From Sporosalibacterium faouarense (GTDB lineage Bacteria > Bacillota > Clostridia > Tissierellales > VENL01): 64,000 bases of DNA. This document shows positions 3,278-62,122 of the stretch, piece after piece. The stretch spans positions 186,001 to 250,000 of the forward strand of contig NZ_JAETGO010000034.1 in NCBI RefSeq assembly GCF_016765695.1, given 5' to 3'. Every line of letters starts with the position of its first letter. Within the stretch, counting starts at the first letter, position 1. Both the position numbers and the translations under genes were made by a program. Below the pieces are notes generated by a model that was not told the DNA's origin, did no database searches, and saw nothing but the letters and a program-made list of their open reading frames with translations.

Positions 3278-3574
3278 ATGGAATTTAGTATCTCAACTAA
3301 AGCTTCTAATTACATTAATGAGAAAGGTGGAGAAGTAGTAATTTATAAAGGGAAACGTAGTTTGGGTGGTTGTTCCGGAGCCACTATCCCGACTCCAATG
3401 ATGAAATTAGGAAACCCTGACCGTTCCCATGAAAATTACCAGCTTATCAAGGAGGCAGGGATAACAATTTATCTTGCTAATGAGTTACAAAAATATAAAG
3501 GAACTGCAAAAATTGAACTTGATAAAATTTTATTTTGGAAGTCTCTTTCTTTTGATTACCTAAGGGATAACTAG
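3278..3574 (+). CDS. CC/Se-motif, HesB-like small protein (Cys form)
   Basis: This 98-residue soluble protein resembles the HesB-like or CC/Se-motif proteins of Clostridia: an N-terminal (KASNYINEKGGEVVI) beta strand, a central GGCSGATIPTPMMKLGNP loop with one Cys, and a C-terminal part resembling an A-type Fe-S scaffold. Some relatives carry selenocysteine in this loop; here the codon is an ordinary Cys and no in-frame TGA occurs. The ATG has TGGAGG 7 bases upstream. The last residues run into a transporter remnant, so the original C-terminus may have been altered. Function is unknown beyond possible metal or Fe-S binding. Confidence 0.5.
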   Translation: MEFSISTKASNYINEKGGEVVIYKGKRSLGGCSGATIPTPMMKLGNPDRSHENYQLIKEAGITIYLANELQKYKGTAKIELDKILFWKSLSFDYLRDN

Positions 3575-3838
3575 TGCAATCATAGGCTCTTCATGGGCAA
3601 CTTGGGCACTAATAATGCCTTTAGCAATTAGTTTCGCATTAAATTCTGAAATTAATATTTCGTTAATGGTAGGAACAGTGTGGGCAGGGGGAGATGTAGC
3701 AGATCTTATTTTTCCTTTATCTGCACAAATGGTAGATACTTCATTTGGAGAACATTTCTTGTTGATGAAATTATAAAAGTACAACGTAGAGAAATTGATA
3801 AAATGAAGAAGTTAATAGTAGATCTTGAAGAAGAGTAA
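3570..3838 (+). pseudogene. Fused remnants: NhaC-type antiporter fragment and DUF305-like tail
   Basis: From 3570 a start-less frame reads IIGSSWATWALIMPLAISFA and continues to TAA 3774-3776. It matches, almost residue for residue, the late membrane part of the intact NhaC-type antiporter at 60167-61567 (both have MVGTVWAGG and PLSAQM). A second frame, DEIIKVQRREIDKMKKLI, overlaps its end and runs to TAA 3836-3838. That tail resembles the C-terminus of DUF305 proteins, though this second match is a judgement from a short stretch. The two pieces look like a deletion scar joining two unrelated genes. Neither can make a working product. Confidence 0.6.
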
Positions 3839-3906
3839 TAATTTTAAATTGAAAGTGATGTTTAAAGTTATTAATAATAAGATTTTTAAATAGAGTTTTG
3901 ATAAAG

Positions 3907-3998: not shown

Positions 3999-4015
3999 TT
4001 GGCATGGAAATTGCT
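3999..4015 (+). promoter_or_regulatory. Sigma-54 promoter for the small Cys-rich/lgt operon
   Basis: TTGGCATGGAAATTGCT matches the -24/-12 consensus with GG at 4001 and GC at 4013. The first start codon is 41 bases past the GC. The terminator just upstream means this promoter starts a new transcription unit. Confidence 0.85.
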
Positions 4016-4054
4016 TTAATATTTAATGTAAGTAATTTAGGAGGGTAATAGATA

Positions 4055-4150
4055 ATGAAAAAAGTAAAAGAGTTTGTTATATCAAGCATTCTGTTTACTC
4101 TATTAGTTTATTTCACAGTAGGAATTCATCACTTAGCAGTGCTAATCTAG
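4055..4150 (+). CDS. 31-residue single-pass membrane peptide
   Basis: ATG has a GGAGGG site 9 bases upstream and lies just after a sigma-54 promoter, so translation is likely despite the size. The peptide has a short basic start (KKVKE), one hydrophobic helix (about residues 8-24) and a short end with two adjacent His. No family is recognised. It is the first gene of an operon of tiny membrane proteins, and could be a leader or a regulator of the membrane proteins that follow. It may also be the shortened remnant of a longer protein. Confidence 0.55.
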   Translation: MKKVKEFVISSILFTLLVYFTVGIHHLAVLI

Positions 4151-4193
4151 CAATTAATATAACTATAAATTGTATATAAAAGGAGAGGTTAAA

Positions 4194-4382
4194 ATGCTTA
4201 TAATTTTAAGAGTCTTGTATTTACTATTAATAGGCTATCTAGTTTACACAATGATAAAGAGGGGTGGTTGTTGTGGCCACGGACATAGTCAAAAGGGAAA
4301 TAGCTGTTGCGATGATAATGATAAAAAGAATTCAGAAAAAATGATAAGTGATAATGAGAAGACTAATTCTATCAACATTTAA
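4194..4382 (+). CDS. Small membrane protein with CCGHGH metal-ligand cluster
   Basis: This 62-residue protein has one N-terminal transmembrane helix (about residues 1-20), a basic KRGG hinge, then CCGHGHSQKGNSCC, eight possible metal ligands (Cys and His) in fourteen residues, and a charged Asp/Lys/Glu-rich tail. The start is the ATG preceded by AAAGGAGAGG; an in-frame ATG 24 bases earlier has no ribosome site. The layout resembles small Cys-rich FeoB partners and suggests metal binding at the membrane, but the metal is not evident. It is second in the sigma-54 operon. Confidence 0.7.
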   Translation: MLIILRVLYLLLIGYLVYTMIKRGGCCGHGHSQKGNSCCDDNDKKNSEKMISDNEKTNSINI

Positions 4383-4449
4383 AAAATAGACTATTGTTTG
4401 AAATTCAACAACTACTGTGTTAAAACTCACAACTTAGGAAGGGATAAAA

Positions 4450-4749
4450 ATGAAAAAGAAGATAATTCTCATAGGAATTATAATTTTAATAATAATATAT
4501 ATAATTTTTTATGGTGCAACACATCATTTTTTCTATGGTAGCATTTGTGGAAGTGGATTAAATGGATTAAAATTACTAGTTATGTACTATATACCCCTAA
4601 GTTTGTTATTACTTTTAACATATATATTATTTAAGCAAAATAGAACTTCTACTAAGAGGTGTGAATATTGTAGAACCCATATTAATAGAGACTTAGATAT
4701 ATGTCCATACTGTGGGAATCATAGTGAAGGGAATGCTGAAGGATTATGA
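4450..4749 (+). CDS. Two-helix membrane protein with C-terminal zinc ribbon
   Basis: This 99-residue protein has two transmembrane segments (about residues 4-24 and 43-62) and then a cytoplasmic zinc ribbon, CEYC-x12-CPYC. Zinc ribbons of this kind mediate protein contacts in many small membrane proteins. The family is not recognised. The ATG follows TTAGGAAGGG. Its stop codon overlaps the start of the next gene (ATGA), so the two are translationally coupled and their products probably act together. Confidence 0.7.
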   Translation: MKKKIILIGIIILIIIYIIFYGATHHFFYGSICGSGLNGLKLLVMYYIPLSLLLLLTYILFKQNRTSTKRCEYCRTHINRDLDICPYCGNHSEGNAEGL

Positions 4750-4985
4750 TGTTGATATTAGTAGGTATATTGTTAATATCGGTTTACTCTATATCAAAGG
4801 TCCATACGTATGAACAGTGCAACTGTATTTCTGAAAAAGTTGAGCTAAAGTGTTTTAAATGTGGTGAAGATATAGAAGAAGATTATATTTACTGTCCTCA
4901 TTGCAAGGAAAGACTTAAAAGAGCATGTGAAGGCTGTGGGAGGATGATTAATATTTTCTGGAGACAGTGCCCATATTGTGAGTAA
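4746..4985 (+). CDS. Double zinc-ribbon membrane-anchored protein
   Basis: This 79-residue protein starts with one hydrophobic helix, followed by CNC and then two zinc ribbons, CFKC-x11-CPHC and CEGC-x11-CPYC. The paired ribbons match the double zinc ribbon (DZR) pattern. It overlaps the preceding zinc-ribbon gene by four bases, which points to coupled translation. The function is unknown; as with its neighbour, zinc here is probably structural. Confidence 0.7.
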   Translation: MMLILVGILLISVYSISKVHTYEQCNCISEKVELKCFKCGEDIEEDYIYCPHCKERLKRACEGCGRMINIFWRQCPYCE

Positions 4986-5057
4986 TAGTTTGCTAAAATT
5001 TTAGGATAAGTTAATTTTCAAAATATATTAATAAAATAAATGAAAGGAAGATGAAAT

Positions 5058-5186
5058 ATGAAAAAGTGGTTTGAAAATTTCTTAAAAAAATTAGAAGAGG
5101 CAAATAAGAAGAATTTTGGTTCAGGAAGACTTGATTGCTGCGAAGCTAATCAGAAGAGTAATGATAGTCATAAAACTAAAAAGTAA
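5058..5186 (+). CDS. LDCC-motif putative metal-binding protein
   Basis: This 42-residue peptide has an amphipathic, Lys-rich N-terminal helix (KKWFENFLKKLEEANKK), a Gly-rich turn and the motif RLDCCE near the middle. That matches the small LDCC-motif family of putative metal-binding proteins in Clostridia, which are normally 40-50 residues long. A GGAAG site is 7 bases upstream of ATG. Only the Cys pair suggests metal binding; the role has not been established for the family as far as I know. It sits inside the sigma-54 operon between the zinc-ribbon genes and lgt. Confidence 0.75.
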   Translation: MKKWFENFLKKLEEANKKNFGSGRLDCCEANQKSNDSHKTKK

Positions 5187-5276
5187 GTTTTTATATTAAA
5201 GGATTTTAAATAACATTTTACTTGAGTGTTATCTAATAAACAGATGTTTTAAATAGAGTCAGGGAGGATGAAGATA

Positions 5277-6107
5277 GTGGTAGAGGTATTTAAAATAGGA
5301 CACTATGCAATATATTTATTTGGATTAACAATTGTATTAGGAATGATAGTTGGAATATATATTATGACCAAAGAAGCTAAAAGAAAAGGGTTAAGTGTTG
5401 ACAAATTAACTGATTTAGCAATATACACTATAATTTCTGCCATAGTAGGAGCTAGACTATATTATGTATTTGCTTTTAACGCTAAGTATTATCTTCAAAA
5501 TCCAAAAGATATTTTAGCCTTAAGAGATGGTGGACTCTCTATTCAAGGGGCTTTGATTTTTGGAGTACTATTTGCTCTATGGTACACAAAAAAGAAGAAT
5601 ATTAGCTTTGGTAAAGCAGCTGATGCTTTTGCACCTGGAATTATTATGGGGCAGGCTATAGGTAGAATAGGTTGTGATGTATTTGGAATTCCGATGACAA
5701 AAGCCTATTTCTGGGGAGTAAGTGTTAATAATCAACTACTGCACCCAGCACAAATATATGAGGCTCTTCTTAACTTAGTATTATTTACGTATTTATGGAA
5801 ATCAAGAGATAAGACAAAATATAATGGTCAATTATTCATTAAATATATAATTGGTTTTTCTATAATACGAGGAATAGTAGAATTCTTTAGGATTAATCCA
5901 ATTGTGTTTGGTCCATTTACTATTGCCCATGTTACAAGTTTAGGGATTATAGTTGGTGCCTTAATAATGAATAATATTTTGAAGAAACGTAATCAAAGTG
6001 ACCATGTTAATAAATCAAGTGAGGCTGCTATAACACCCATCACTCACTACGTGGGAATTATTTTAATAGGTGCTATTGGAATTTGGATTTATTATTTTGT
6101 ACATTAA
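5277..6107 (+). CDS. lgt: Prolipoprotein diacylglyceryl transferase (Lgt family)
   Basis: Lgt moves diacylglycerol from phosphatidylglycerol to the lipobox Cys of prelipoproteins in the cytoplasmic membrane. The protein has about seven transmembrane helices. It shows the core signatures DGGLSIQGAL, GQAIGRIGCDVFG, HPAQIYEALLN and RGIVEFFR. The usual GRIGN has Cys in place of Asn, an unusual substitution at a conserved position. GGGAGG is directly followed by ATG 5268, so GTG 5277 at 9 bases is the more likely start. An operon with small membrane proteins suggests lipoprotein traffic is adjusted with the sigma-54 response, or that this is an accessory Lgt. Confidence 0.85.
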   Translation: MVEVFKIGHYAIYLFGLTIVLGMIVGIYIMTKEAKRKGLSVDKLTDLAIYTIISAIVGARLYYVFAFNAKYYLQNPKDILALRDGGLSIQGALIFGVLFALWYTKKKNISFGKAADAFAPGIIMGQAIGRIGCDVFGIPMTKAYFWGVSVNNQLLHPAQIYEALLNLVLFTYLWKSRDKTKYNGQLFIKYIIGFSIIRGIVEFFRINPIVFGPFTIAHVTSLGIIVGALIMNNILKKRNQSDHVNKSSEAAITPITHYVGIILIGAIGIWIYYFVH

Positions 6108-6148
6108 TATAAAGATTAAAATATAAGAAAAGACGAGGAGGAAATTAT

Positions 6149-6436
6149 ATGCAAAATCATAAAAATGATAAATCAAAGGAAATGAATAAGGGCACTGAAA
6201 AGAATGGACATGGACTAAAACATGGATTAATGATGATGCTTTGTTGCTTAATACCAATTTTGATAATTGCAGGTCTACCGTTATTTGGCTTCAAGGGGAG
6301 CACACCTACTTGGTTAATATTTTTGCTTATGCCTTTAATGCATGTAGGAATGATGTTTAGTATGAAAAAAGGCAAACATAAGGATTCTTTCCATGATGAT
6401 AAAACCAAAGAAGTAAAGGTTAAAGTGGAAAAGTAA
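6149..6436 (+). CDS. DUF2933-like small membrane protein
   Basis: This 95-residue protein has a hydrophilic Lys/His-rich start, then HGLMMMLCCLIPILIIAGLPLFG and a second hydrophobic segment ending in PLMHVGMMF, followed by a Lys/His-rich tail. The pattern of an MMLCCLIP helix next to a second helix is that of the DUF2933 proteins often found with metal-resistance genes. ATG has GAGGAGG 8 bases upstream. One base separates it from the next gene. Met, Cys and His in the helices make copper or other soft-metal contact plausible but unproven. Confidence 0.6.
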   Translation: MQNHKNDKSKEMNKGTEKNGHGLKHGLMMMLCCLIPILIIAGLPLFGFKGSTPTWLIFLLMPLMHVGMMFSMKKGKHKDSFHDDKTKEVKVKVEK

Positions 6437-6437
6437 T

Positions 6438-8723
6438 ATGGCGAGGTTAAAAAAAGACCAAATGATATATTTTTCAGTATTTCTAATAACACTTTCCCTA
6501 TTTAGTTATGAAGTTTTATTAACCCGACTATTTTCAGTGATTTTAAGCTTTAACCTAGTTTTTTTAGTAGTTTCCTTCTCAATACTAGGGAGTGGATTAG
6601 GAGGCATATTGGTCTACAGAAAGCTAAATAATGAACATGTAGATATTAGACAGCTTACATTAAAGTATGCCCTTTTTTTACCCATAGCTATAATCGGAAC
6701 TATAATGCTAATATATAAGCTCCCCTATATTAGAATATTTTTCCTATATCCATTTATAGGTGTTATTCCTTTTATATTTGGTGGAGGTTTAATATCTATA
6801 ATATTCAGGGAATTTGCTGAAGGTAGTTATAAGATATACTTTATGGATTTAGTAGGTTCCGCCTTAGGAAGTATTTTAATAATAAAGATCATGAATATAT
6901 ATGGATTTATGTATAGTTTAGTGATTATAACTGGAATCTCTTTATTTGCAGCTGTACTTATATCTATATATTTTAAATCTACTAAGATGATTATAACAAA
7001 GCTTATACTGATTTTAGGTATACTAGGACTAATATACCAACCAACAACTGTATTAAATATTGAAAAAGGATTTACATCTTACATTACAAGTCCAAATACT
7101 TTGATTAGTTACCTAAAAACAACTGATGAGAAGCCTCTGGGTATATCTTACTCAAAATGGAATGCAGTATCTAGAACAGATGTAATTGAAACAACAAATC
7201 AAAATGAAAAAACAGTAGTAACAGATGGCGGTGGATCTGCTCCAATAATAAAATTTAACGGAAATTTAAAGAGTGTTGAATACCTAAAGAATAAAACAGC
7301 TTTCTTGCCCTTTTCAATAGGTGAAAATGATAAATCATTAGTAATTGGGTCCGGAGGTGGCAAGGATATATTACTAGCTCTTTTAGGGGGAAGTAAAGAT
7401 ATAACAGCTGTAGAAATAAACTCATCAACGATTGAGGCAGTAAATTTATATAAAGAATTTAGTGGCGATATATATGGTAGACCTGAAGTGAAGGTATACA
7501 ATAAAGATGGAAGAAATTTCATAGAAAATACAAAAGAAAATTATGACAACATATATCTTGCAATGGTTATGACTAATGCAATTGAGAATACAATGTATTC
7601 ACTATCAGAAACCTATCTATTTACTGAAGAAGCATTTAAGGAGTATTTTAGTAAGTTAACAGCAGATGGGAAATTAAGCTTTATGCCCCATGATGGTTTG
7701 GATATGGCTAGAGTAGTAAATACAGGTATAAAGGTTTTAATGGAAAGTGGAGTTGATCAAAGTGAAATAACAAACTATTTTGTTATAGTCAACGGAACAA
7801 GTAAACAATATCAAAATGACCATGGTCATAGTATTATGATGCCTATGGTAATATTTAAGAAAAATCCATTTTCTGATCACGAATTATCACAGACCTTAGA
7901 TATAGTCAAAAAACAAGGAAAACAAACAATACATTATCCAGGTGGAGAATATGAGTGGTTTAAACAATTAAGTGATAATGAGATTAACTACAAGGAACTT
8001 CTAAGTAAATATGGTGCTAATGTAAGTCCGATTTCTGATAATAAACCATTCTTCTATAATTATTCAAATCTGATTCCAGGAGAGATTGTTTTTTTGGGAA
8101 TCGCTATGGGATTAATTTGGTTGACCGTAAGAAGAAAGTTCTTTAAAGAGAGTCACATAAAGAATGCATCAACCCATTTTATACTTATAGGTATGGCGTT
8201 TATGCTTGTTGAGATACCAATAGTACAGAAGACAAGCCTGTATCTAGGGAATCCAACATTGGCCTTTAGTAGTGTTCTTTTTAGTATACTTCTAAGTAGT
8301 GGTATAGGAAGTCTTATAAGTGGAAAAGAGATAATAAAGAAATACTTGGTAAATTCATCTGTGTATTTATTAGTAGCAGGCTTAAGTATCGTAACAGTTC
8401 TTTTTAGTTTAGACAGAGTATTTATGTTAACGAGTGACCTAGGATTGAATGCTAAGTTTTTCATTTTATTCTTGAATCTATTACCTATGGGAATATTTAT
8501 GGGAATGCCATTCCCTACAGGTATAAATGCTATTAATAAAAGCATAAATGACAAAGTACTAATTCCTCTTATGTGGGGTGCCAATGGCATTTTCTCAGTA
8601 ATAGGTTCAATATTAGCTATAAGTATTTCAATTAAATTTGGATTTGATACAACTATTTTTATAGGAGCTATGCTATATTTATATCTTTATATAAAAAATC
8701 CACTAAAGATACTAGCAAAGTAA
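6438..8723 (+). CDS. Spermidine-synthase-like integral membrane protein
   Basis: The protein (761 residues) has about six N-terminal transmembrane helices, a soluble central domain, and about six more helices at the C-terminus. The centre holds an aminopropyltransferase or SAM-dependent fold: GSGGGKDILLALLGGSKDITAVEIN (a glycine loop followed by an acidic strand end), then YDNIYLAM. Membrane-bound spermidine-synthase-like proteins of this size are widespread in Clostridia and their substrate is unknown. It is the last gene of the sigma-54 operon, one base after the DUF2933-like gene. Its start overlaps the end of that unit, and translation is probably coupled. Confidence 0.7.
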   Translation: MARLKKDQMIYFSVFLITLSLFSYEVLLTRLFSVILSFNLVFLVVSFSILGSGLGGILVYRKLNNEHVDIRQLTLKYALFLPIAIIGTIMLIYKLPYIRIFFLYPFIGVIPFIFGGGLISIIFREFAEGSYKIYFMDLVGSALGSILIIKIMNIYGFMYSLVIITGISLFAAVLISIYFKSTKMIITKLILILGILGLIYQPTTVLNIEKGFTSYITSPNTLISYLKTTDEKPLGISYSKWNAVSRTDVIETTNQNEKTVVTDGGGSAPIIKFNGNLKSVEYLKNKTAFLPFSIGENDKSLVIGSGGGKDILLALLGGSKDITAVEINSSTIEAVNLYKEFSGDIYGRPEVKVYNKDGRNFIENTKENYDNIYLAMVMTNAIENTMYSLSETYLFTEEAFKEYFSKLTADGKLSFMPHDGLDMARVVNTGIKVLMESGVDQSEITNYFVIVNGTSKQYQNDHGHSIMMPMVIFKKNPFSDHELSQTLDIVKKQGKQTIHYPGGEYEWFKQLSDNEINYKELLSKYGANVSPISDNKPFFYNYSNLIPGEIVFLGIAMGLIWLTVRRKFFKESHIKNASTHFILIGMAFMLVEIPIVQKTSLYLGNPTLAFSSVLFSILLSSGIGSLISGKEIIKKYLVNSSVYLLVAGLSIVTVLFSLDRVFMLTSDLGLNAKFFILFLNLLPMGIFMGMPFPTGINAINKSINDKVLIPLMWGANGIFSVIGSILAISISIKFGFDTTIFIGAMLYLYLYIKNPLKILAK

Positions 8724-10381: not shown

Positions 10382-12829
10382 ATGACACAAGAAACACTAA
10401 ATATTAATGGAATGACCTGTGCATCCTGTGCAAAGGCAGTAGAAAAAAGTGTTAGTAAAGTGAAAGGTGTACAAAGTGCCACTGTAAACTTTGCTACTGA
10501 AAAGCTAAGTGTTGAGTTTGATGAATCAGTATCAATAGATGATATAAAGAATGCAGTTAAAGATGCTGGTTATGCTGCAGAAGAGGATGTAGAACTAAGA
10601 GAAGTGATAATACCTATAGGAGGTATGACATGTGCATCCTGTGCAGCAGCTATAGAGAAGGAGGTAAGAAAGCTAAAGGGAATAGAAGAGATAAATGTAA
10701 ATGTAGCTACAGAAAAAGCAAAGGTACAATATAATCCCTATGCAACAAGAATTTCCGAGATAAAGGGAGCAATAAAGAAGGCAGGCTATGAAGCACTCGA
10801 GATAGAAGCGGGAGATGAAATAGACGCGGAAAAGGAAAAAAGACAAAAAGAAATGAAAACACTTTGGAAGAAATTCGTGGTATCAGCAATTTTCTCTGTG
10901 CCACTATTATATATAGCCATGGGACACTTGATAGGTCTATCACTACCAGAAATAATAGAACCATCAGTATATCCCTTTAACTTTGCCCTAGTGCAGCTTC
11001 TGCTTACAATACCAGTAGTAATAGCAGGATATAAGTTTTATACAGTAGGATTTAAGGCCTTAATTCATAGAAACCCCAATATGGATTCACTAATAGCAAT
11101 AGGAACAGGAGCAGCAATACTATATGGTATATATGGGACAGTACAGATATATAATGGACATTTGGAATACTCACAAGACTTATATTTTGAAACAGCTGGA
11201 GTAATAATCACGCTGATACTATTAGGAAAATATCTAGAGTCAGTAACAAAAGGAAAAACATCAGAAGCTATTAAAAAACTAATGGGTCTACAGCCAAAAA
11301 CTGCAGTAGTAATACATGAAGGAAAAGAAATGACAATACCAATAGAAGAAGTTGAAGTAGGAGACATAGTACTAGTAAAGCCAGGGGAGAAAATACCAGT
11401 AGATGGAACCGTAATAGAAGGACATACATCTATTGATGAATCAATGCTAACAGGAGAAAGTATACCAATTGAAAAACATATAGGAGATAAAGTAATAGGA
11501 GCAAGTATTAATAAAAATGGAACAATAAAGTTCAAAGCAACAAAGGTAGGTAAGGATACTGCATTAGCACAGATAATTAAGCTAGTAGAGGATGCCCAGG
11601 GCTCAAAAGCACCTATAGCAAAGCTAGCAGACGTAATATCAGGATACTTTGTACCAGTAGTTATAGCAATAGCAATACTATCAGGAATAGCATGGTATAT
11701 AGCAGGGGCTACAGGAATATTTGCACTTACCATTTTTATAGCAGTACTTGTAATAGCTTGTCCTTGTGCTTTAGGATTAGCTACACCTACAGCAATAATG
11801 GTTGGAACTGGAAAGGGAGCAGAATATGGGGTCCTTATAAAGGGGGGAGTGCCTCTTGAAACAGCCCATCAAATAAAAACAATAGTATTTGATAAAACAG
11901 GAACAATAACAGAAGGGAAACCAAAGGTAACAGATATAGTAACTGAAAAGGGATATACAGCAGATGAGCTACTTGAAATAGCAGGTTCTGCAGAAAAAGG
12001 GTCTGAACATCCACTAGGAGAGGCTATAGTAAAGGGAGCAGAAGAAAAAGGACTAGAATTCAAGAAAATTGATAAGTTCATGGCCATACCAGGTCATGGT
12101 ATAGAAGTAATAATTGAAGGTAAAGATATACTCCTTGGAAATAAAAAACTGATGGATGAAAAGGAAATAGAAATTACCCTACAAAAGGAATCAGACCGAT
12201 TGGCAAATGAAGGCAAAACACCAATGTTTATAGCCATAGATGGAAAGCTTGCAGGGATAGTAGCCGTAGCAGATACAGTAAAAGAAAGCAGTGCAGAGGC
12301 AATAAAAAGATTGCATAACATGGGAATAGAAGTTGCAATGATAACTGGGGATAACAAAAGGACAGCAGATGCAATAGCAAAACAGGTTGGTATAGATATA
12401 GTCTTAGCAGAAGTACTACCAGAGGACAAAGCAAGTGAAGTTAAAAAGCTGCAGGATACAGGAAAGAAAGTGGCAATGGTAGGAGATGGAATAAATGATG
12501 CTCCTGCCTTAGCCCAAGCTGATGTAGGTTTAGCTATTGGATCAGGTACAGATGTAGCGATGGAGTCAGCTGATATAGTACTAATGAAAAGTGACTTAAT
12601 AGATGTAGTTACAGCAATACAGCTAAGTAAAGCTACTATAAGAAATATCAAGCAAAACCTATTTTGGGCATTTGCCTATAATACAGCAGGCATACCAATA
12701 GCAGCAGGCCTTTTATATATCTTTGGAGGACCAAAACTTAATCCAATGTTTGCTGCTGCGGCTATGTCCCTTAGTTCAGTATCAGTTTTAACAAATGCAT
12801 TAAGACTTAAGGGATTTAAACCCCATTAG
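10382..12829 (+). CDS. copA: Copper-exporting P-type ATPase CopA
   Basis: CopA is a P1B-type ATPase that pumps Cu(I) out of the cell. Two N-terminal HMA domains carry GMTCASC (Cys 13/16 and 84/87). Eight transmembrane helices include the CPC transport site (460-462). The catalytic Asp is in DKTGT (504-508), with SEHPLG and GDGINDAP in the ATP-binding domain. At 815 residues it is full length. ATG follows GAAGGAGG. The product works with the CopZ chaperone encoded 93 bp downstream, and copper would relieve CsoR at the operator upstream of the ferredoxin gene. Confidence 0.95.
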
Positions 12830-24982: not shown

Positions 24983-25327
24983 ATGGGTTTGGTAGGAAAT
25001 GTAGGAAATGAGAATATGCAAGCTTGTATCGATGAATGTAAAAAATGTCTTCAGGCTTGCGAAGAGTGTTTAACACTTTGCTTGAATGAAGAAGATGTTA
25101 ACAAAATGGTTACTTGTATTAAGATTCTGAGAGACTGTATTGATATTTGTGATTTAGCAATGAAGTTTATGTCTAGAAATAGTGACCATGCAAAACATGT
25201 ATGTAAAGAATGTGCTGAGATATGCGAGATATGTGCTAAGATTTGTGATGAAATGCAAACTAGTCACTGTACAAAATGTGCAGAAATTTGCCGTCAATGT
25301 GCAGCTGAGTGTAGAAAGATGATATAA
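24983..25327 (+). CDS. csp: Four-helix-bundle copper-storage protein (Csp/DUF326)
   Basis: This 114-residue protein has no signal peptide and is rich in Cys at helical spacing: CIDECKKCLQACEECLTLC, then CVKIL-type and CKECAEICEICAKIC, CTKCAEICRQCAAEC, altogether about 20 Cys. This is the cytosolic Csp pattern: four helices lined inside with Cys that hold many Cu(I) ions. ATG follows TGGAGG. A possible degenerate Fur-like TAATAATGATAATAA lies 40 bp upstream. A second member is encoded at 59575-59922. Confidence 0.9.
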   Translation: MGLVGNVGNENMQACIDECKKCLQACEECLTLCLNEEDVNKMVTCIKILRDCIDICDLAMKFMSRNSDHAKHVCKECAEICEICAKICDEMQTSHCTKCAEICRQCAAECRKMI

Positions 25328-26903: not shown

Positions 26904-26920
26904 AGCAAATTATATGCCAA
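26904..26920 (-). promoter_or_regulatory. Sigma-54 promoter for the peptidoglycan-binding protein
   Basis: On the minus strand TTGGCATATAATTTGCT has canonical spacing, 51 bases from GC to the ATG. It differs at one position from the promoters of split feoB and HlyD. Confidence 0.85.
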
Positions 26921-27056
26921 GTATAAATGATGATATATTGAAGTGTTTCATATTATGGTTGAATTATTTGATACAGAACTTGTATTATATGGCACAAGTA
27001 TTATCTTAATATCCTATTTAAATTAAAATAATATACTGAAAATGATATGAAAATGG

Positions 27057-27073
27057 TTGGTATAGATATTGCT
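27057..27073 (+). promoter_or_regulatory. Sigma-54 promoter (TTGGTATA form)
   Basis: TTGGTATAGATATTGCT has GG at 27059 and GC at 27071, 51 bases before an ATG. The -24 box has T instead of C, as at 61721. Confidence 0.72.
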
Positions 27074-27122
27074 AATGTTATTATATATACAAAATATTAT
27101 AAAAGAAGGAGGTATTATAATA

Positions 27123-27335
27123 ATGAATAATGTTGGGATTTATATTCAAAGTTTCAAATCTTCGAAAAATAATATATCTACAAAAGGACAATATGGAAAG
27201 CATGCACATAACGGACGGCATGAAGGTATGATGAATAAGATGAAAGAGAGCAAACATGATTACTCCTGTAATAGAAAAACTATGGAACTATCAATAAATA
27301 AAAAAACAGGAAATAACATAGATGAAAATATTTAG
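27123..27335 (+). CDS. Unknown small basic protein
   Basis: This 70-residue protein (ATG 9 bases after AAGGAGG) is rich in Lys, His and Asn (KHAHNGRHEGMMNKMKESKHDY) and has one Cys. There is no membrane segment or signal peptide. No family is recognised; His and Met may bind metal. It is first in a probable two-gene unit behind a sigma-54 promoter. In-frame codons upstream of 27123 have no ribosome site. Confidence 0.6.
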   Translation: MNNVGIYIQSFKSSKNNISTKGQYGKHAHNGRHEGMMNKMKESKHDYSCNRKTMELSINKKTGNNIDENI

Positions 27336-27416
27336 TTAATAATTGTAATAACTATAGAAAAGATTTTTCATTTAAACATCAAATAGACTACCAGATAAGA
27401 ATAGAGGTATTAATAC

Positions 27417-28112
27417 ATGAAAAGATCTAAAAAGATACTAATGAATATATTGAAAGCCATTTTGGTTATTTTTCTTCCTATTGCTATATTACTTACTGTG
27501 GTACAATATTATGCATTTAATAAGGACTTCTATTTAAAAGAATACTCCAAGTATGAGGTTTCTGAGTCTACAGGAATTAGTAACGAGGATTTGGGAGAAA
27601 TTACGAATAGATTACTAGATTATTTAAAGCAAAATGAAGAAGATCTGAACATTAGGGTTTTAATTAATGGTAGTATGGAAGAAGTATTTGGAGAAAGAGA
27701 AAAACTCCATATGGTAGATGTTAAAGAGTTATTTATTAAGGGGTATATACTTAAAAATACGAGCATTATTATGAGTATAGTTTCAATACTAGGAATTATT
27801 ATATTCTCTAATAATAAAAGAAAAGACATATTTCAAGTTATATATTGGGCAAGTGGTATTCCACTTATACTAATGCTAACACTATTTATTTTAATAAAGA
27901 CTGATTTCTACAAATATTTCACGTACTTTCATAAGATATTCTTTACTAATGATTTATGGCTCTTAAACCCTAAGACAGATATATTAATTCAATTAGTACC
28001 CTTAGGATTTTTCACAGATATATCAATAAAAATTTTAATTTTATTTAGCTTGATACTGATATTTCTAATTATAATATCCATATACTTTAGCAAGTCTCTA
28101 AGACATAATTGA
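27417..28112 (+). CDS. TIGR01906/DUF1461-type integral membrane protein
   Basis: This 231-residue protein has four transmembrane helices (near residues 10-30, 110-130, 140-160 and 205-225). The long loop after helix 1 contains EYSKYEVSESTGISNEDLGEITNRLLDYL and HMVDVKELF; after helix 3 comes FTYFHKIFFTNDLWLLNPKTDILIQLVPLGFF. These are hallmarks of the TIGR01906 (DUF1461) family. Its function is unknown. AGAGG lies 9 bases before ATG. It ends at a hairpin terminator. Confidence 0.8.
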   Translation: MKRSKKILMNILKAILVIFLPIAILLTVVQYYAFNKDFYLKEYSKYEVSESTGISNEDLGEITNRLLDYLKQNEEDLNIRVLINGSMEEVFGEREKLHMVDVKELFIKGYILKNTSIIMSIVSILGIIIFSNNKRKDIFQVIYWASGIPLILMLTLFILIKTDFYKYFTYFHKIFFTNDLWLLNPKTDILIQLVPLGFFTDISIKILILFSLILIFLIIISIYFSKSLRHN

Positions 28113-45612: not shown

Positions 45613-45629
45613 ATGGCACGATTATTGCT
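45613..45629 (+). promoter_or_regulatory. Sigma-54 promoter, best consensus match
   Basis: ATGGCACGATTATTGCT reproduces the TGGCACG-N4-TTGCW consensus exactly. GG is at 45615 and GC at 45627, 38 bases before ATG. Confidence 0.92.
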
Positions 45630-45665
45630 TTATAAATTAAGTATAAATTTTTAGGAGGTGCGAGA

Positions 45666-45833
45666 ATGGGTTGTTGCGGTGGTGGACACAAACATTATCA
45701 GAAAATGGATGAGCAAGAAAAACTTCGAATGCAGAAAAACAAGGAGCAATCTGAGGATGTAAAAGCTCCGAATTTAATGCCAATACTTGCTTTTGTATTA
45801 GTTGCAGGCGTAGCATTTTATTTCCTTAGGTAA
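45666..45833 (+). CDS. Small membrane protein with MGCCGGGH start
   Basis: This 55-residue protein begins MGCCGGGHKHY, a cluster of Cys and His, followed by a charged helix and one C-terminal membrane helix (MPILAFVLVAGVAFYFL). The strong GGAGGTG site and the best sigma-54 promoter in the window make translation very likely. The Cys/Gly/His start resembles metal-binding heads of other small proteins here, such as the one at 4194. No family is recognised. It is followed by a strong terminator, so most transcripts end after it. Confidence 0.72.
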   Translation: MGCCGGGHKHYQKMDEQEKLRMQKNKEQSEDVKAPNLMPILAFVLVAGVAFYFLR

Positions 45834-45859
45834 AAGAATAGGACTCATCCTATTCTTTT
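45832..45859 (+). terminator. Terminator after the CCGGGH gene
   Basis: A perfect 12-bp stem (AAAAGAATAGGA and complement) around CTCA, overlapping the stop codon and ending in TTTT. Confidence 0.85.
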
Positions 45860-45942
45860 CAATACCTAGTTTAAATAAGGAAATAGACTATATCGGGAAA
45901 TTATTAGATTAAAGTAATTATATAGATGATAAGGTGGATAGT

Positions 45943-46548
45943 ATGAAAAAAATAGTAATTATTATACTAAGTATATTAGTAATATCAATAGGTGCATATA
46001 TATTCTTTGAAAGTGATGTTGGAATATCCTCAGATAATCAAGATTTCATAATAGAGAACGATAAAAGCGTTGAAAAAGAAGATTATAGTAATAAGAAAGA
46101 AATAGTAGAGACACCTCAAGAAAATAAAGATATAAAAGAAATACCAGAAGATGAATTGGAAAAGTATATAAGATATAGTAGTCAAGGACCTATAGATATA
46201 GGAATTTTGTATAAGAATGTAATTGAACCTAATGATGAATATTTAATATTTGAAATGATGCTTAACAATCATTCTATTGATGTAAGTAATATTGATTATT
46301 CTAAGTTTGTAAGTCTCAGAAATGATAAAGGATTAGTAATTAAAGAAGGTTTTGAATGGGACGTCTTCGAAGGTAGCGGACACCATGTATTTGGAAGCTT
46401 AAAAATACCAAAGCAATATGAAGGTGAAAATATTATTGATGATACAACTGAGTATATTGAATTAGAGCTAAAAGGCTTTGAAGATACTATAAAAAGTGAA
46501 AAAAGTAAATTCCTTTGGAAAAAAGAAGTTCTAAGACCTTTTAAATAA
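45943..46548 (+). CDS. Unknown membrane-anchored protein
   Basis: The protein (201 residues) has an N-terminal signal or anchor helix (KKIVIIILSILVISIGAYIFF), an acidic linker (EKEDYSNKKEIVETPQENKDIKEIPEDELEKYI), and a beta-rich domain with NHSIDVSNIDYSKFVSLRNDKGLVIKEGFEWDVFEGSGHHVFGSLKIP. Its C-terminal part looks like an Ig-like or DUF4352-type fold but I cannot name the family. ATG 45943 has AAGGTGG 6 bases upstream. It runs with the beta-propeller and ICMT-like genes that follow. Confidence 0.6.
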   Translation: MKKIVIIILSILVISIGAYIFFESDVGISSDNQDFIIENDKSVEKEDYSNKKEIVETPQENKDIKEIPEDELEKYIRYSSQGPIDIGILYKNVIEPNDEYLIFEMMLNNHSIDVSNIDYSKFVSLRNDKGLVIKEGFEWDVFEGSGHHVFGSLKIPKQYEGENIIDDTTEYIELELKGFEDTIKSEKSKFLWKKEVLRPFK

Positions 46549-46562
46549 CAAAAGGATAGGTG

Positions 46563-47585
46563 ATGATAATGATGAGAAAAAGAAAGTTAATAATATCAGG
46601 GCTTTTAGTAGTTCTAATATTAAGTGGATTATATATATACAAAACTGGTAATGTTACAACAGATGCAAGTAAGAACAATTATTTAGCATATATACCTAAT
46701 GTAGATGATGGTACTGTGTCTATTATAGACACTTCAAATCAGACTATAGTGGATGAGATTAAAGTAGGTGAGTCCGTATCCCATGGAATAGCAATAACTC
46801 CAGATAATCTAAAATTATATACAGGAGATTTAGATGATGGTAAAGTTTTTGTATATGATATAAAAGAGAAAAAAGTTATTAAAACTATAGAAACTAACAA
46901 AAGAATACATGGTATTGATATCTCACCTGACGGTAAATATGTACTCTTGGCTAGCGGAGCATTAGAAGTTGATGATAAATATAATTATATTCAATACATT
47001 GATACTGAAATTGATGAAGTTACTAAAACAATAAAATCTGATGCCAAAAGTCCTGCACATATAGATTTCACAAAAGATAGTAAATATGCATATGTTGCAA
47101 ATGTTATGTCAAATGATATTTCTATAATTGATATTAAAAAAGGAGAGATTATTGACTCAATAAAAGTAGGAATTATGCCTAATGAAGTAGAACCTTCTCC
47201 TGATGATAAGTTTGTTTATGTAGCTAATGTGCAGGAAGGAAGTATTTCTGTAGTTGATATGGCAGTAAAAAAAGAAATAGATAAGATTAAAGTAAGTCCA
47301 GGAACCCATGGAGTAGCGGTTACAAGTGATGGTAAGTATGTATGGACTACTAATAGATTTGGTAAAATTGTAGCAATTATTGATGCCAATAAAAGAGAAG
47401 TAATTAAGACTATTGAATTAAAAGGAGAGCCTAATCACGTGTCAATATCTCCAAATGGACAGTATGCATATGTTACTGATTTAGAATCTAACAAACTAAT
47501 TATATTTGATACTAAAACTTATAAAGTGATAAATGAGTTAGAAATAGGCAAGCAACCTCATGAAATAGATTTTGCTAAAATATAG
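46563..47585 (+). CDS. Membrane-anchored beta-propeller (YVTN-type) protein
   Basis: This protein of about 340 residues has one N-terminal membrane helix and then repeats of the YVTN type: NVDDGTVSIIDTSNQTIVDEIKVGESVSHGIAITPD, YIQYIDTEIDEVTKTIKSDAKSPAHIDFTKD, YVANVMSNDISIIDIKKGEIIDSIKVGIMPNEVEPSPD and more, about seven blades. It probably acts as an extracellular binding scaffold. Several starts are possible (GTG 46560, ATG 46563, 46569, 46572) after AGGATAGG; I use 46563. It lies 12 bp or so after the preceding gene. Confidence 0.8.
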   Translation: MIMMRKRKLIISGLLVVLILSGLYIYKTGNVTTDASKNNYLAYIPNVDDGTVSIIDTSNQTIVDEIKVGESVSHGIAITPDNLKLYTGDLDDGKVFVYDIKEKKVIKTIETNKRIHGIDISPDGKYVLLASGALEVDDKYNYIQYIDTEIDEVTKTIKSDAKSPAHIDFTKDSKYAYVANVMSNDISIIDIKKGEIIDSIKVGIMPNEVEPSPDDKFVYVANVQEGSISVVDMAVKKEIDKIKVSPGTHGVAVTSDGKYVWTTNRFGKIVAIIDANKREVIKTIELKGEPNHVSISPNGQYAYVTDLESNKLIIFDTKTYKVINELEIGKQPHEIDFAKI

Positions 47586-47619
47586 TTTTGGTAAAAAATA
47601 AAGAAAGAGGGGGGCATAT

Positions 47620-48297
47620 ATGTCATATTTAGACCAATACGCTTATGGACTTTGGGGTAGAGTATTAGTTAATATAGTATTCCTTGTAGGTTTTACTTAC
47701 TATATATTTAAACCTCAGGCTAAGAGAGAATGGAGATCAATGGGAGCTTATGCTGCATTTGCAGTAGCCTTATTTACAGAAATGTATGGTTTTCCACTTA
47801 CTATATATTTTCTGACATCAGTACTTGGAAATAACTATCCTGTACTTGATCCATTTACCCATGTAAATGGACATTTATGGGTAGTATTAGCAGGTGGATC
47901 AAAGGTTTTGTTTTCAATAATACATCCATTAAGTAATTTAATAATAATGTTAGGACTACTTGTTATACACATGGGTTGGAAAGGGATTCATAGTGGTAAG
48001 GGCGAGTTGGTTACCACTGGGATATATAAATATATAAGACATCCCCAATACACTGGATTTATGTTAATAATAACTGGATTTCTAATTCAATGGCCGACTA
48101 TTATTACACTAATAATGGCACCAATTCTATTTATTATCTATATTAGATTAGCTAAGAAAGAAGAAGAATTAATGATTAAGACCTTTGATGAAGAGTATAT
48201 CAAATTCAAAGAAGAAGTTCCTGCATTTATCCCTAATAGAAGGATAAGATTAAAAGATTTCTTTAAAAGAAAATCACAACAAAGTATAGAGGAATAA
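47620..48297 (+). CDS. Isoprenylcysteine-carboxylmethyltransferase-like membrane methyltransferase
   Basis: This 225-residue membrane protein has about five helices and the C-terminal PEMT/ICMT signature: GELVTTGIYKYIRHPQYTGFMLIITGFLIQWPT..., then KKEEELMIKTFDEEYIKFKEEVPAFIPN. This family methylates lipids, quinones or protein ends in the membrane; the bacterial substrate is unclear. AGAGGGGGG lies 8 bases before ATG. It ends the operon at a hairpin and immediately precedes the IS66 insertion. Confidence 0.85.
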   Translation: MSYLDQYAYGLWGRVLVNIVFLVGFTYYIFKPQAKREWRSMGAYAAFAVALFTEMYGFPLTIYFLTSVLGNNYPVLDPFTHVNGHLWVVLAGGSKVLFSIIHPLSNLIIMLGLLVIHMGWKGIHSGKGELVTTGIYKYIRHPQYTGFMLIITGFLIQWPTIITLIMAPILFIIYIRLAKKEEELMIKTFDEEYIKFKEEVPAFIPNRRIRLKDFFKRKSQQSIEE

Positions 48298-48490: not shown

Positions 48491-48853
48491 ATGGATATGA
48501 GAGAGGTAAATCATCAAGTAAGAATTCAAGAATGGCGACAAATAATCTCAGAGTGCAGAAACAGTGGAAAGCCCGTAAGAGAGTGGTGTGCAGAAAACTC
48601 CATCAAGGCAAGTAGATATTACTACTGGTTAAGGGTAATCCGCAATGAATCATTAGTACTCATGCAAAGAGATTCTCAAATAGCACAATCATCCTTTGCT
48701 GCAGTCATGGTAAAAGAAACAGAGGCACTATCAGTAAAAAGTAATGACACATGTGCAGTAGTAAAAGGGAGAAATTTTTCTGTAGAAATAAAAAATGGAG
48801 CCAATATCGAAACCTTAGAAAACACCCTACGGGTATTAAACAATCTATGTTAA
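48491..48853 (+). CDS. tnpA: IS66 TnpA accessory protein
   Basis: This 120-residue protein has the IS66 TnpA helix-turn-helix (RIQEWRQIISECRNSGKPVREWCAENSIKASRYYYWLR). It is accessory to transposition and has no catalytic site. ATG follows AGGAGG (GTCTCAGGAGGAATGTCAT). It overlaps tnpB by 7 bases. Confidence 0.9.
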   Translation: MDMREVNHQVRIQEWRQIISECRNSGKPVREWCAENSIKASRYYYWLRVIRNESLVLMQRDSQIAQSSFAAVMVKETEALSVKSNDTCAVVKGRNFSVEIKNGANIETLENTLRVLNNLC

Positions 48854-49203
48854 CAGAGTTGAGTGGATTCGTTCATGTTTATGTAGCATGTGGTCACACA
48901 GACATGAGAAAATCAATAGACGGCTTAGCAGCCATTGTCACTCAAAATTTCAAGCTAGACCCCTTTGATAAAAGTCTGTTCCTATTCTGCGGAAGAAGGC
49001 GGGACAGAATAAAGGGTCTTCTTTGGGAAGGGGATGGATTTCTCCTTCTATACAAGCGTTTAGAAGGAGGGAGCTTCAACTGGCCCAAAAATCCACAGGA
49101 AGTAATAAAGTTAACGCCCCAGCAATATCGATGGCTTATGGAGGGACTATCAATTCACCAGAAAAACACCATCCCAAAGCTTGATAAAAAAAGATTAATT
49201 TAA
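48847..49203 (+). CDS. tnpB: IS66 TnpB accessory protein
   Basis: This 118-residue protein has the IS66 Orf2 signature: HVYVACGHTDMRKSIDGLAAIV, FCGRRRDRIKGLLWEGDGFLLLYKRLEGG and the TPQQYRWLMEGL end. I start at ATG 48847, inside the end of tnpA, the usual coupling; an upstream in-frame start is not needed. It assists TnpC. Confidence 0.9.
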   Translation: MLTELSGFVHVYVACGHTDMRKSIDGLAAIVTQNFKLDPFDKSLFLFCGRRRDRIKGLLWEGDGFLLLYKRLEGGSFNWPKNPQEVIKLTPQQYRWLMEGLSIHQKNTIPKLDKKRLI

Positions 49204-49315
49204 GTGCTCAAAAGCGTTGAAAAACAGCGTATTTTGAGTTCTTTTTTATAGCTTTCAAAGACAAAAAATGGTATAATTAAAGGAGATAAAAACACTGAAA
49301 GAAGGCTGAATTTAG

Positions 49316-50893
49316 GTGACTGAAAGCTCAATAATAAAAACACTTCAAAATACAATTGAATCACAAAATAAGATAATAGAAGACTTAAGAAAAGAGCTTC
49401 AGAGAGCCAATGAGAATGTAGAATTGCTACTAAAGAAGCTTTACGGCAGAAAGACTGAAAAAACATCTGTAATTGATGGTCAACTTGTAATTGAAGAAGT
49501 TGCCATGGGATTATTTAATGAAGCAGAAGCAAACGAAGACCCAACAGTACTAGAGCCCGTACCCTTTGAAGAACCCATAAAAAGAACCCGTGCAGGGTAT
49601 AAGAGAAAAAAAGCCTTTAAAGACCTTCCTCAGCAGGATCAAGTATTCAAGCTAGAAGAATCTCAACGAAACTGTCCCTCCTGCGGAGCAGGACTATCGG
49701 AAGCAGGGAAAAAATTCTTGCGCTCTGAAATCAAGTATATCCCAGCAGAAATCAGTATAGTAAACATATATCAGGAGACCTACGAATGCAGAAGTTGTAA
49801 AAAAGAAGGTCGCCCATCTATATTTAATCCATACACTCCTGAACCAGTATTACAACACTCCTATGCAACGGCATCAAGTGTAGCCTGGTCAATGTATCAA
49901 AAATTCGTACAGGCAGTTCCCCTATATAGGCAGGAAAAAGATTGGAAGCAAATGGGCTTTCCAATAAGCAGGTCAACTCTCTCAAATTGGATACTAAAGA
50001 CATCAGAAGAATGGTTAGAGCCCGTAGTAAAGAGGCTTCATGAAGAACTTCTAAAAGAAAAGTATCTTCATTCAGATGAGACTCCTGTACAAGTATTAAA
50101 TGAGCCTGGGAAGAAGAATACCACAAAGTCATACATGTGGGTATATGCCACATCTAAGGGGGCAAATAACCCAATAAGAATTTTCCAGTATGAAACCGGA
50201 AGAGCCGGTGATAATGCAAGGGAATTTCTTAAAGGATTTGATGGATATCTTCATACAGATGCATATTCAGGATATGGAAAAGTCAAAGACATCAAGCACT
50301 GCTTATGTTGGGCTCATGTCCGAAGGTATTTTGTGGACGCAAGTCCAAAAGATATGAAGAGTCTAGAGGCAACCCTTGCAGCAACAGGAATTGCATACTG
50401 CAATCAGCTATTTGATTGGGAGAGAAAATTTAAAGAACTTACTCCTAAAGAGCGAAAAGAGCAGCGTCTAAAAAATGAAAAACCAGTATTAGATGCCTTT
50501 TGGTCGTGGGCAGAAAAAACAAAAAAAGAAGTACTCCCAAAATCTAAGATAGGAGTAGCTCTTCAATATGCAATCAATCACAAAGAAAAGCTAGAAACCT
50601 ATCTAGAAGATGGAAGCTGTGTAATATCAAACAACATAGCGGAAAACAGCATCAAACCATTCACAGTTGGAAGAAAGAATTGGGAGTTTTGCGGTAGCCC
50701 GCAAGGGGCAAAAGCTAGTGCCTGTGTCTATTCCCTGGTTGAAACAGCAAAGGCAAATGGGCTAAATCCTTATAAGTATTTAGAATTTATGTTATCAAGG
50801 CTACCAGGGTCAAATTTTAAAACCAATCCAAAAGTTCTGGACTTAATGCTTCCTTGGGATTCATTAGTTCAAAAGATATGTAAAGATAACTAA
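49316..50893 (+). CDS. tnpC: IS66 TnpC transposase
   Basis: This is the DDE transposase, 525 residues. It has an N-terminal leucine-rich coiled coil (IIKTLQNTIESQNKIIEDLRKELQRANENVELLLKKLYG), a zinc-finger (CPSCGAG, CRSC), and the catalytic domain: LHSDETPVQVL, HTDAYSGYG and later SNNIAENSIKPFTVGRKNW with the Glu. GTG 49316 follows AGG. The reading frame is intact. Confidence 0.92.
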   Translation: MTESSIIKTLQNTIESQNKIIEDLRKELQRANENVELLLKKLYGRKTEKTSVIDGQLVIEEVAMGLFNEAEANEDPTVLEPVPFEEPIKRTRAGYKRKKAFKDLPQQDQVFKLEESQRNCPSCGAGLSEAGKKFLRSEIKYIPAEISIVNIYQETYECRSCKKEGRPSIFNPYTPEPVLQHSYATASSVAWSMYQKFVQAVPLYRQEKDWKQMGFPISRSTLSNWILKTSEEWLEPVVKRLHEELLKEKYLHSDETPVQVLNEPGKKNTTKSYMWVYATSKGANNPIRIFQYETGRAGDNAREFLKGFDGYLHTDAYSGYGKVKDIKHCLCWAHVRRYFVDASPKDMKSLEATLAATGIAYCNQLFDWERKFKELTPKERKEQRLKNEKPVLDAFWSWAEKTKKEVLPKSKIGVALQYAINHKEKLETYLEDGSCVISNNIAENSIKPFTVGRKNWEFCGSPQGAKASACVYSLVETAKANGLNPYKYLEFMLSRLPGSNFKTNPKVLDLMLPWDSLVQKICKDN

Positions 50894-52421: not shown

Positions 52422-52813
52422 GATTATTAAATAGATTGTAGCAAATAAAACGTAAAAAGTAAGTACTATTTAGTATAAATAGTGATTTTTTTGGCTCTTT
52501 GTCAATAGTTGAGTGGGATAAGTTTTAATCCCGCTCGATTATTACAATAGAGCCTATTTTAAACTCATTATAGCCCTAATCATGAAAATAGAAATAATAC
52601 TTATAATTATTAGATAAAGAACACTCAAATAATAATCAGACTATGCAGTAAAACAAGAAAAGTTTATGACCTGTATTTTGCTATAAGTATTATTATATTA
52701 ATTGATTTTTAACTTATAAAATTAATAATGATATAATAATTAAATAGTAAATATATTTAATCTATAGTCAATGAATTATCAAAGGCAAGGAATAATCATA
52801 TAAGGAAGTGTTT
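52422..52813. other. Intergenic region between rpoN and the kinase gene
   Basis: AT-rich with no open frame. At 52495-52550 GGCTCTTTGTCAATAGTTGAGTGGG and a GGGAT...ATCCC-like hairpin resemble the end of a transposable element (ISL3-like ends begin similarly), perhaps a relic. No sigma-54 site was seen for the kinase gene. Confidence 0.35.
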
Positions 52814-56014: not shown

Positions 56015-56680
56015 TTGAGTACATTACCAAAGGAAGTTTGAAGTGAAATGATTACCGAAGGTAATCTAAAAACATCAGCAGATTTATATTCATACCTTGA
56101 AGACTTGTTCAAGTAGGCCCTTTAAGAAATGTTACAATCGAAGCTTGGGATTGACTTAAGCTATGAAAAAGGAAACAGAAAAAGTAAGAGTACTAATAAG
56201 CGTAGAAATGGTTATAGTGAAAAGATTGTTAAAGCAAAGTTTGGAGAAAAGTAAATAGTAGTTCCCAGTGATCAAAATGGAGAATTTGAACCTGTAGTAG
56301 TTCCAAAGAATAAAAGAGAAATTCAGGTACTGAATATAAGGTCATATCTATGTATGCAAGTAGTATAACAACCAGAGATATACATGCCCAAATTAAGGCA
56401 TATACAAGAAATGTCGAGCTAAAATGGTAAGTAAGATTACAGATAAGATTATACAGTTATAAAAGAGTGGAAAAATAAAAGCCTTGAATCCATATATCCC
56501 TTTGTTTTTACCGTAAGAGGTCAAGTGTGTCCTGAAGTACCAAGAAATTGGTACGTGCTTTAAAAGAGATGAGAGTAGGTCTTTCGAAATCGATATCCAG
56601 ATATTGGTTTCAGACCACCTTTGGGTGCTGTAGTTAAAAGCTATGGTACTGAGCACAAAGAGAAAAGGTTGTTAAAACAG
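56015..56680 (+). pseudogene. Decayed IS256-family transposase
   Basis: The first frame reads STLPKEV, SEMITEGNLKTSADLYSYLEDLFK, EMLQSKLGIDLSYEKGNRKSKSTNKRRNGYSEKIVKAKFGEK and VVPSDQNGEFEPVVVPKN, which matches the N-terminal part of IS256 (Mutator) transposases, with several in-frame stops. The later part (to about 56680) has frameshifts and only traces of similarity. A better-preserved relative is on the opposite strand at 58954-59472. Confidence 0.7.
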
Positions 56681-56689
56681 TCAGGTAAG

Positions 56690-57638: not shown

Positions 57639-57653
57639 CTAAGCTTTGCATAA
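57611..57653. repeat. Inverted repeat at the intron-intron junction
   Basis: CCCAAGGAGGTTTATGC on the plus strand is followed, after about 8 bases centred on AAGCTT, by its exact complement. It encodes the PQGGLC/SQGGLC part of both RT genes, read from each side, so the joined introns meet in a near-perfect palindrome. Confidence 0.8.
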
Positions 57654-62072: not shown

Positions 62073-62122
62073 AAAGCAAGGTAGAAGAGAAACCCTTTAA
62101 ATAATAACATTAATAAGTGTTG

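Follow-up and report, generated by a model that had tools for sequence, protein, structure and literature searches.

A predicted sigma-54 operon with a divergent Lgt-like protein and an MFS-SpeE protein in Sporosalibacterium faouarense probably belongs to a copper-responsive regulon

ZraSR is a sigma-54 envelope-stress system for zinc and antibiotics, and Lit converts diacylated lipoproteins to the lyso form. In Listeria and Enterococcus, mobile elements are described as carrying lgt2/lit2 genes that are induced by copper (Armbruster et al. 2019, cited in PMC8275575), and copper clusters that combine DUF2933, ICMT and CopA are reported from bacteria that include Alteromonas and Vibrio (PMC8478169). 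According to one proposal, sigma-54 governs the exterior of the bacterial cell (PMC3162934), and the main text of a reconstruction of the Clostridiales sigma-54 regulons does not contain the word copper (PMC6615313). Here we analyzed an eight-gene cluster in a 64,000-nucleotide stretch of the Sporosalibacterium faouarense genome (contig NZ_JAETGO010000034.1, positions 186,001 to 250,000), which is called the window below. We consider it reasonably likely that this cluster forms the envelope branch of a sigma-54 regulon that responds to copper. Its anatomy, synteny, common signals and folds were read from sequence, and copper as the signal is what we infer.

The eight genes lie on the plus strand at 4055–8723, downstream of a -24/-12 element, and are separated by gaps of 1–81 bp or overlap by 4 bp. 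The initial annotation had placed one sigma-54 promoter ahead of these genes, and all of them were found where it had put them, behind an exact promoter match. Sigma-70-like matches within the cluster were no more frequent than in shuffled sequences, and the search for promoters and terminators gave just one terminator-like match, inside lgt, and no other credible candidate. A separate promoter for each gene was therefore rejected, as there is no sigma-70 excess and no second sigma-54 site (0–1 mismatches) inside, and the cluster is predicted to be one operon behind a single sigma-54 promoter, as first proposed. The 4-bp overlap joins the two zinc-ribbon genes, the second of which is predicted to be translationally coupled to the first and has 37% identity to its counterpart in G614, a genome from another family of the same order. 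For the 31-residue peptide, profile searches (Pfam, NCBIfam) gave no family match, and no counterpart was seen in the relatives examined. The 62-residue protein has relatives with GGCCGGxHxH, frequently with an added YHS domain, as in locus L025. The DUF2933-like protein scores 13.6 bits, under the PF11666 cut-off of 21, while its orthologues in G614, in genome G025 and on contig C85 of the same genome score 31–41. Immediately upstream of the promoter is a remnant of an antiporter-like gene (3560–3840), which suggests an insertion or decay event at that spot. A small HesB/CC-type protein is encoded at 3278–3574, just ahead of the operon; a similar one adjoins DUF2933 in genome G119 (L041:1983–2258).

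Table 1. Coordinates of the operon and of related features in the window
Feature	Position	Strand	Basis or remark
Sigma-54 (-24/-12) promoter, TTGGCATGGAAATTGCT	3999–4015	+	Exact match, 0 mismatches
31-residue peptide, single transmembrane segment	4055–4150	+	AGGAGG ribosome-binding site
62-residue protein, single transmembrane segment, GGCCGHGH and CC motifs	4194–4382	+	
Weak tandem palindrome pair (candidate)	4394–4411 and 4415–4432		10.5 and 7.0 bits, 21 bp apart
99-residue membrane protein, C-terminal zinc ribbon	4450–4749	+	Zn_ribbon_15, 4e-5, below cut-off
79-residue double zinc ribbon, single transmembrane segment	4746–4985	+	PF12773 DZR, 2.8e-10
LDCC-motif mini metal-binding protein (putative)	5058–5186	+	NCBIfam NF040898, 1.6e-15, 56.6 bits against cut-off 30
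C-type Lgt-like membrane protein	5268–6107	+	PF01790, 9.5e-58
DUF2933-like membrane protein	6149–6436	+	39% identity to the G614 orthologue, which passes PF11666
SpeE-like membrane protein, 761 residues	6438–8723	+	PF01564, 1.6e-5, weak but over cut-off
CopA, Cu+ P1B-1 ATPase	10382–12829	+	Behind sigma-54-like site 9479, palindrome at 9292
Lit, lipoprotein intramolecular transacylase	27417–28112	+	PF07314, 1.2e-44
Sigma-54 site, 204-residue protein, YncE/YVTN propeller, ICMT/PEMT-like methyltransferase	45614–48297	+	
Second rpoN (sigma-54) gene	51021–52421	+	PF04963, PF04552, PF00309
Membrane sensor histidine kinase	52808–54208	+	Read from open reading frame; homologous to kinases beside other clusters
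NtrC-type response regulator, sigma-54 activator	54222–55583	+	PF00158 (3.2e-76), PF00072, PF02954

The operon is predicted to belong, as one of several units, to a larger sigma-54 regulon, which occupies much of the surrounding island. The window contains 9 exact TGGCAYN5TTGCW sites against 0.14 expected, and the whole 4.12-Mb genome contains 30, with a single match to the reversed control pattern, so nearly one-third of the exact sites of the genome fall in 1.6% of its length. The rpoN gene of the island is one of two in the genome, the other being on contig C88 (about 46036–47418) among housekeeping genes, directly ahead of gap and pgk. The activator of the island is among about 16 clear sigma-54 activators in the genome and is 62% identical to that of G614. 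Motif discovery, with 220 bp upstream of the sigma-54 sites of the window as input and four motif widths, gave an 18-bp palindrome with a consensus of about TTGTATTATATAATACAA and a log-likelihood of 55–69, compared with 20–34 in shuffled sequences. The palindromes form tandem pairs about 21 bp apart, mostly 50–115 bp upstream of the -24 box; the window has 10 such pairs, and 60 shuffled windows have none. When trained on the window sites only, the matrix also finds GTGTAGCATATGCTACAC in G614, where it scores 21.5 bits and lies 48 bp ahead of the sigma-54 promoter of the homologous operon, as well as strong sites in G025. This is the pattern expected for activator binding sites, which are predicted here, and the NtrC-type protein of the island is presumed to bind them. 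Among the genes behind these signals are those for CopA/CopZ, FeoB-like, Lit, HlyD/ABC exporter, LemA and MltG-like proteins and the propeller/ICMT operon. Ahead of Lit lie paired palindromes at 26959/26980 and, at 27057, a -24/-12-like site with one mismatch; Lit and CopA both have sigma-54-like and palindrome signals.

The palindromes were also observed in other settings in the window. At 26920–28112, a divergent pair of sigma-54-like promoters with the common tandem palindromes 26959/26980 faces a peptidoglycan-binding gene one way, and an 88-residue protein and Lit the other way. Further activator-type palindromes occur at 52436–52453 (14.5 bits) before the kinase and activator genes and at 62117–62155 (17.8 bits, paired) before a DedA-like gene, both without a clear -24/-12 match. 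Pieces of IS66-like, group II intron, transposase and IS110-like elements lie around the island (48491–50893, 56571–59493, 63010–63990), and the region looks mobile or recently rearranged.

The gene set is syntenic in relatives, where the initial annotation had asked whether the genes would be scattered. The paralogous cluster on C85 encodes a kinase, an activator, LDCC, a zinc ribbon, a 228-residue protein, DUF2933 (35.5 bits for PF11666), SpeE-like, C-type Lgt, CopA and CopZ, with three sigma-54 sites. In G614, a single sigma-54 promoter is followed by LDCC, a zinc ribbon, a 215-residue lipoprotein-like protein, a YncE propeller, DUF2933, SpeE-like, C-type Lgt, a NusG-II protein, a CCGG peptide and ICMT, flanked by the kinase, activator, CopZ and CopA; this operon unites the gene sets that are split in the window between the operons at 4000 and 45614, and the window/G614 pairs compared have 37–62% identity over the aligned parts. 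G025 has one sigma-54 site before LDCC and another before zinc ribbon, DUF2933 and SpeE-like genes, adjoining CopA and CopZ, and genome G245 has a sigma-54 site before LDCC, DUF2933, CCGG and zinc-ribbon genes, then a kinase, an activator and a second sigma-54 site before lgt and Lit, with CopA upstream. The genes recur in four more genomes (G180, G119, G120 and G213) with CsoR, CopA, CcdA, RseC-like or YHS proteins, and no sigma-54 sites of the searched form were found at these operon heads. The only match in a contig search with the SpeE-like protein alone was one distant deltaproteobacterial locus.

These loci point to copper. Among 14 loci of the C-type Lgt, 10 have LDCC, 9 have CopA and 7 have the 204-residue protein, compared with 0, 1 and 0 of the 16 canonical-Lgt loci from the same class used as a control. 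The CsoR encoded beside SpeE-like or C-type Lgt genes retains Cys-His-Cys, presumably its ligands, and the CopA of the island has two CASC domains, CPC, YN and MSLSS, which we take to be signatures of a Cu+ P1B-1 ATPase. Annotated plasmids carry comparable sets: YncE-spermine synthase, a four-helix copper protein and CopC in Alkalihalophilus pseudofirmus; a CopY-like regulator, lgt and spermine synthase in Paenibacillus lautus; DUF2933, CopZ, CopA and lgt in Metabacillus; a four-helix copper protein, DUF2933 and lgt in Cytobacillus; LDCC, CopA, CsoR and lgt in Fusobacteria; and CopY, CopA, multicopper oxidase, TIGR01906, lgt and two DUF2933 genes in Enterococcus faecium. Because the loci of relatives adjoin CsoR, CopA and LDCC genes, the metal of the operon is most likely Cu(I), which narrows the membrane-associated metal system suggested by the initial annotation to copper as the most probable metal. 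Two Cys-rich four-helix-bundle proteins are also encoded in the window, at 24983–25327 and 59575–59922 (DUF326, copper-storage-like; the second was read by eye).

The lgt product scores 195.8 bits against the PF01790 cut-off of 24.9, and its structural model matches E. coli Lgt (5azb) with a Z-score of 21.0 (2.9 Å over 239 residues), the next best match having 7.5. Its start is probably GTG 5277 rather than 5268, because GGGAGG lies 9 nt upstream and the new N-terminus aligns with relatives. Residue roles for this comparison are those of E. coli Lgt. In that numbering, Tyr26 is Phe, His103 is Gln and Asn146 is Cys in the window copy; the alignment thus bears out the Cys in place of the Asn of GRIGN that had been read from the sequence. 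The His is kept in some C-type members. A four-residue deletion follows the Cys (GRIGC-DVFG; clade motif GR[IV]GC-DVFG), Arg143 and several further conserved residues are retained, and the C-type protein carries an additional C-terminal helix. Profile scores were bimodal, with 272–439 bits for the C-type and at most 224 for all others, and the 13 C-type proteins form one clade (96/97), while the Lgt2 of E. faecium groups with the canonical enzymes on a long branch. Owing to the loss of conserved Tyr26, His103 and Asn146, the protein was classed in an Lgt-like C-type clade and not as an Lgt of known activity. A plain duplicate of the housekeeping lgt was rejected, since two canonical copies are found elsewhere in the genome (C80 and C83:132283) and the C-type is a separate clade.

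The AlphaFold2 model of the SpeE-like protein (mean predicted local distance difference test score, 84) consists of a membrane part resembling the major facilitator superfamily (MFS) and an inserted spermidine-synthase-like domain at about residues 220–540. The membrane part matches SV2A and FLVCR2 with Z-scores of 29 and 24, and the inserted domain matches spermidine synthases with a Z-score of about 19. In 10 members, the S-adenosylmethionine (SAM)-binding residues G304, G306–308, D310, E326 and D357–R359 are invariant. None of the 10 keeps the catalytic Asp loop that follows strand beta4; other residues (LAMVMTNA, LGKVFSNV and similar) stand in its place, and the loop is poorly ordered in the model. 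The score against the NCBIfam speE profile is 23 bits, with a cut-off of 250. Of the first description as a membrane aminopropyltransferase-like protein, the membrane location and the SpeE fold hold, while the protein is an MFS-like transporter with an insert, and the aminopropyltransferase function was rejected because the Asp loop is missing. Since the SAM-binding residues are kept and the catalytic loop is replaced, this MFS-SpeE protein probably couples SAM-dependent modification or sensing to transport and is probably not a polyamine synthase. In several genomes of the order, a second SpeE-like form stands beside an RseC-like gene, usually with CsoR (L018, L023, L024 and L026) and near hisS/aspS in three of these four loci, and is apparently the older form.

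For the proposed copper regulon, we also infer the chain from kinase to activator to promoter, the metal binding, and the activities of the C-type Lgt and MFS-SpeE. Excess Cu(I) at the membrane would be sensed by the local histidine kinase, which would phosphorylate the NtrC-type activator; the activator on the tandem palindromes would then open the sigma-54 promoters of the island. The CCGHGH, LDCC and zinc-ribbon peptides and the DUF2933 protein would bind or buffer the metal at the cytoplasmic membrane together with CopA and CopZ. The C-type Lgt and the co-regulated Lit would change lipoprotein N-termini during copper stress, by analogy with lgt2/lit2, and action on lipoproteins is the most likely reading because of the copper-induced precedent in Listeria. 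MFS-SpeE would bind SAM without being an aminopropyltransferase and would most likely modify a small molecule or lipid, move it across the membrane, or both.

Several observations weigh against this proposal. No palindrome was found in the 600 bp upstream of the operon promoter, where most other promoters of the island have one; the only candidate is the weak pair in Table 1, which lies between genes two and three, about 380–430 bp downstream of the promoter, and is a possible activator site. Two C-type loci, L097 and L045, are without copper genes. A wider metal or envelope stress may also be the signal, given the FeoAB-like, ArsP and ABC-export genes in the window. Without Tyr26 and Asn146, and in the window copy His103, the C-type Lgt possibly does not act as a lipoprotein transferase. 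One argument for the proposal is the co-occurrence of the C-type Lgt, seen in 7 of 391 genomes of the class, with the SpeE-like protein, seen in 8; 6 genomes have both (hypergeometric p = 4e-11). This value, however, ignores shared ancestry, and some of the loci were found via one of the two genes.

The near-strict co-occurrence of these two genes also favors an explanation in which they form a pathway of their own, with MFS-SpeE making and exporting a modified lipid or a small molecule derived from SAM, while the C-type Lgt lipidates a thiol that is not in a lipoprotein. The two genes share one cluster in the window, C85 and G614, and the active sites of both proteins are altered, with the SAM-binding residues retained in MFS-SpeE. 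However, several loci hold one gene without the other nearby, and the neighbor of the C-type Lgt in G245, where Lit lies directly 3′ of it, is the natural partner of a lipoprotein Lgt; we regard a separate pathway as rather unlikely. A more far-reaching idea, which we consider doubtful, is that Clostridia devote a sigma-54 regulon to copper and that a pair of new membrane enzymes cooperate in it, the C-type Lgt lipidating substrates other than ordinary prolipoproteins and MFS-SpeE making and moving a SAM-derived compound or lipid that shields the membrane from Cu(I). The copper proposal would link the open question of the spare lipoprotein-modifying enzymes in copper islands to a defined clade of altered Lgt and a partner enzyme.

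The units with the same promoters and palindromes also encode LemA, MltG-like, peptidoglycan-binding and M23/G5-like proteins, an ABC exporter and Lit, and this output, with sigma-54 as a proposed controller of the exterior (PMC3162934), would fit a general envelope-stress regulon in which the copper genes are only a part and the operon repairs the cell surface instead of handling copper. LDCC, DUF2933, C-type Lgt and SpeE-like genes nevertheless accompany copper genes in lineages that lack sigma-54 sites, for example at CsoR or CopY loci, and we regard this explanation as rather unlikely. Another soft metal or metalloid (Hg, Cd, Ag or As) or iron, for which a weak MerF-like match of the DUF2933-like protein (0.013) and the ArsP permease and FeoAB genes of the island might speak, is very unlikely, as the neighbors across genomes are CopA, CopZ, CsoR with Cys-His-Cys, CopY, CopC and multicopper oxidase, and merA/merB, arsC and cadA were not noticed among the neighbors read, although no profile search was aimed at them.

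The combination had at first been taken as not described as such, and this was correct in part. Copper loci with an extra lgt, Lit, DUF2933, ICMT and LDCC proteins are already known or named, whereas control by sigma-54, the clade of C-type Lgt proteins and the partner MFS-SpeE have, as far as searchable papers show, no earlier description. In that literature, we found no paper on LDCC proteins, none that combines Lgt, spermidine synthase and copper, and none that describes such a sigma-54 copper regulon in Clostridia. The analysis suggests that Clostridia have a copper response under sigma-54 control, and it predicts the activator, the binding site and the genes involved. The locus resembles the lgt2/lit2 module in having an extra Lgt, Lit, DUF2933 and copper ATPase genes in a copper locus. 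However, the Lgt2 of E. faecium is of the canonical type (GRWGNFMNQEAYG) and lies outside the C-type clade, and its locus has a CopY-type regulator instead of sigma-54, with SpeE-like, LDCC and zinc-ribbon genes not seen there. The Alteromonas and Vibrio clusters likewise place DUF2933 and an isoprenylcysteine-type methyltransferase beside CopA, but an Lgt or spermidine-synthase gene is not mentioned for them (PMC8478169). With SpeE, including SpeE fused to membrane domains, the MFS-SpeE protein has the fold and the SAM-binding motifs in common; unlike SpeE, its domain sits inside an MFS-like transporter and the DSSDP-type catalytic loop is replaced. The membrane kinase, the NtrC-type activator and the -24/-12 promoters are those of a ZraSR-type sigma-54 metal system, while the window differs from ZraSR and the Clostridiales sigma-54 regulons in having its own second rpoN inside the copper island.

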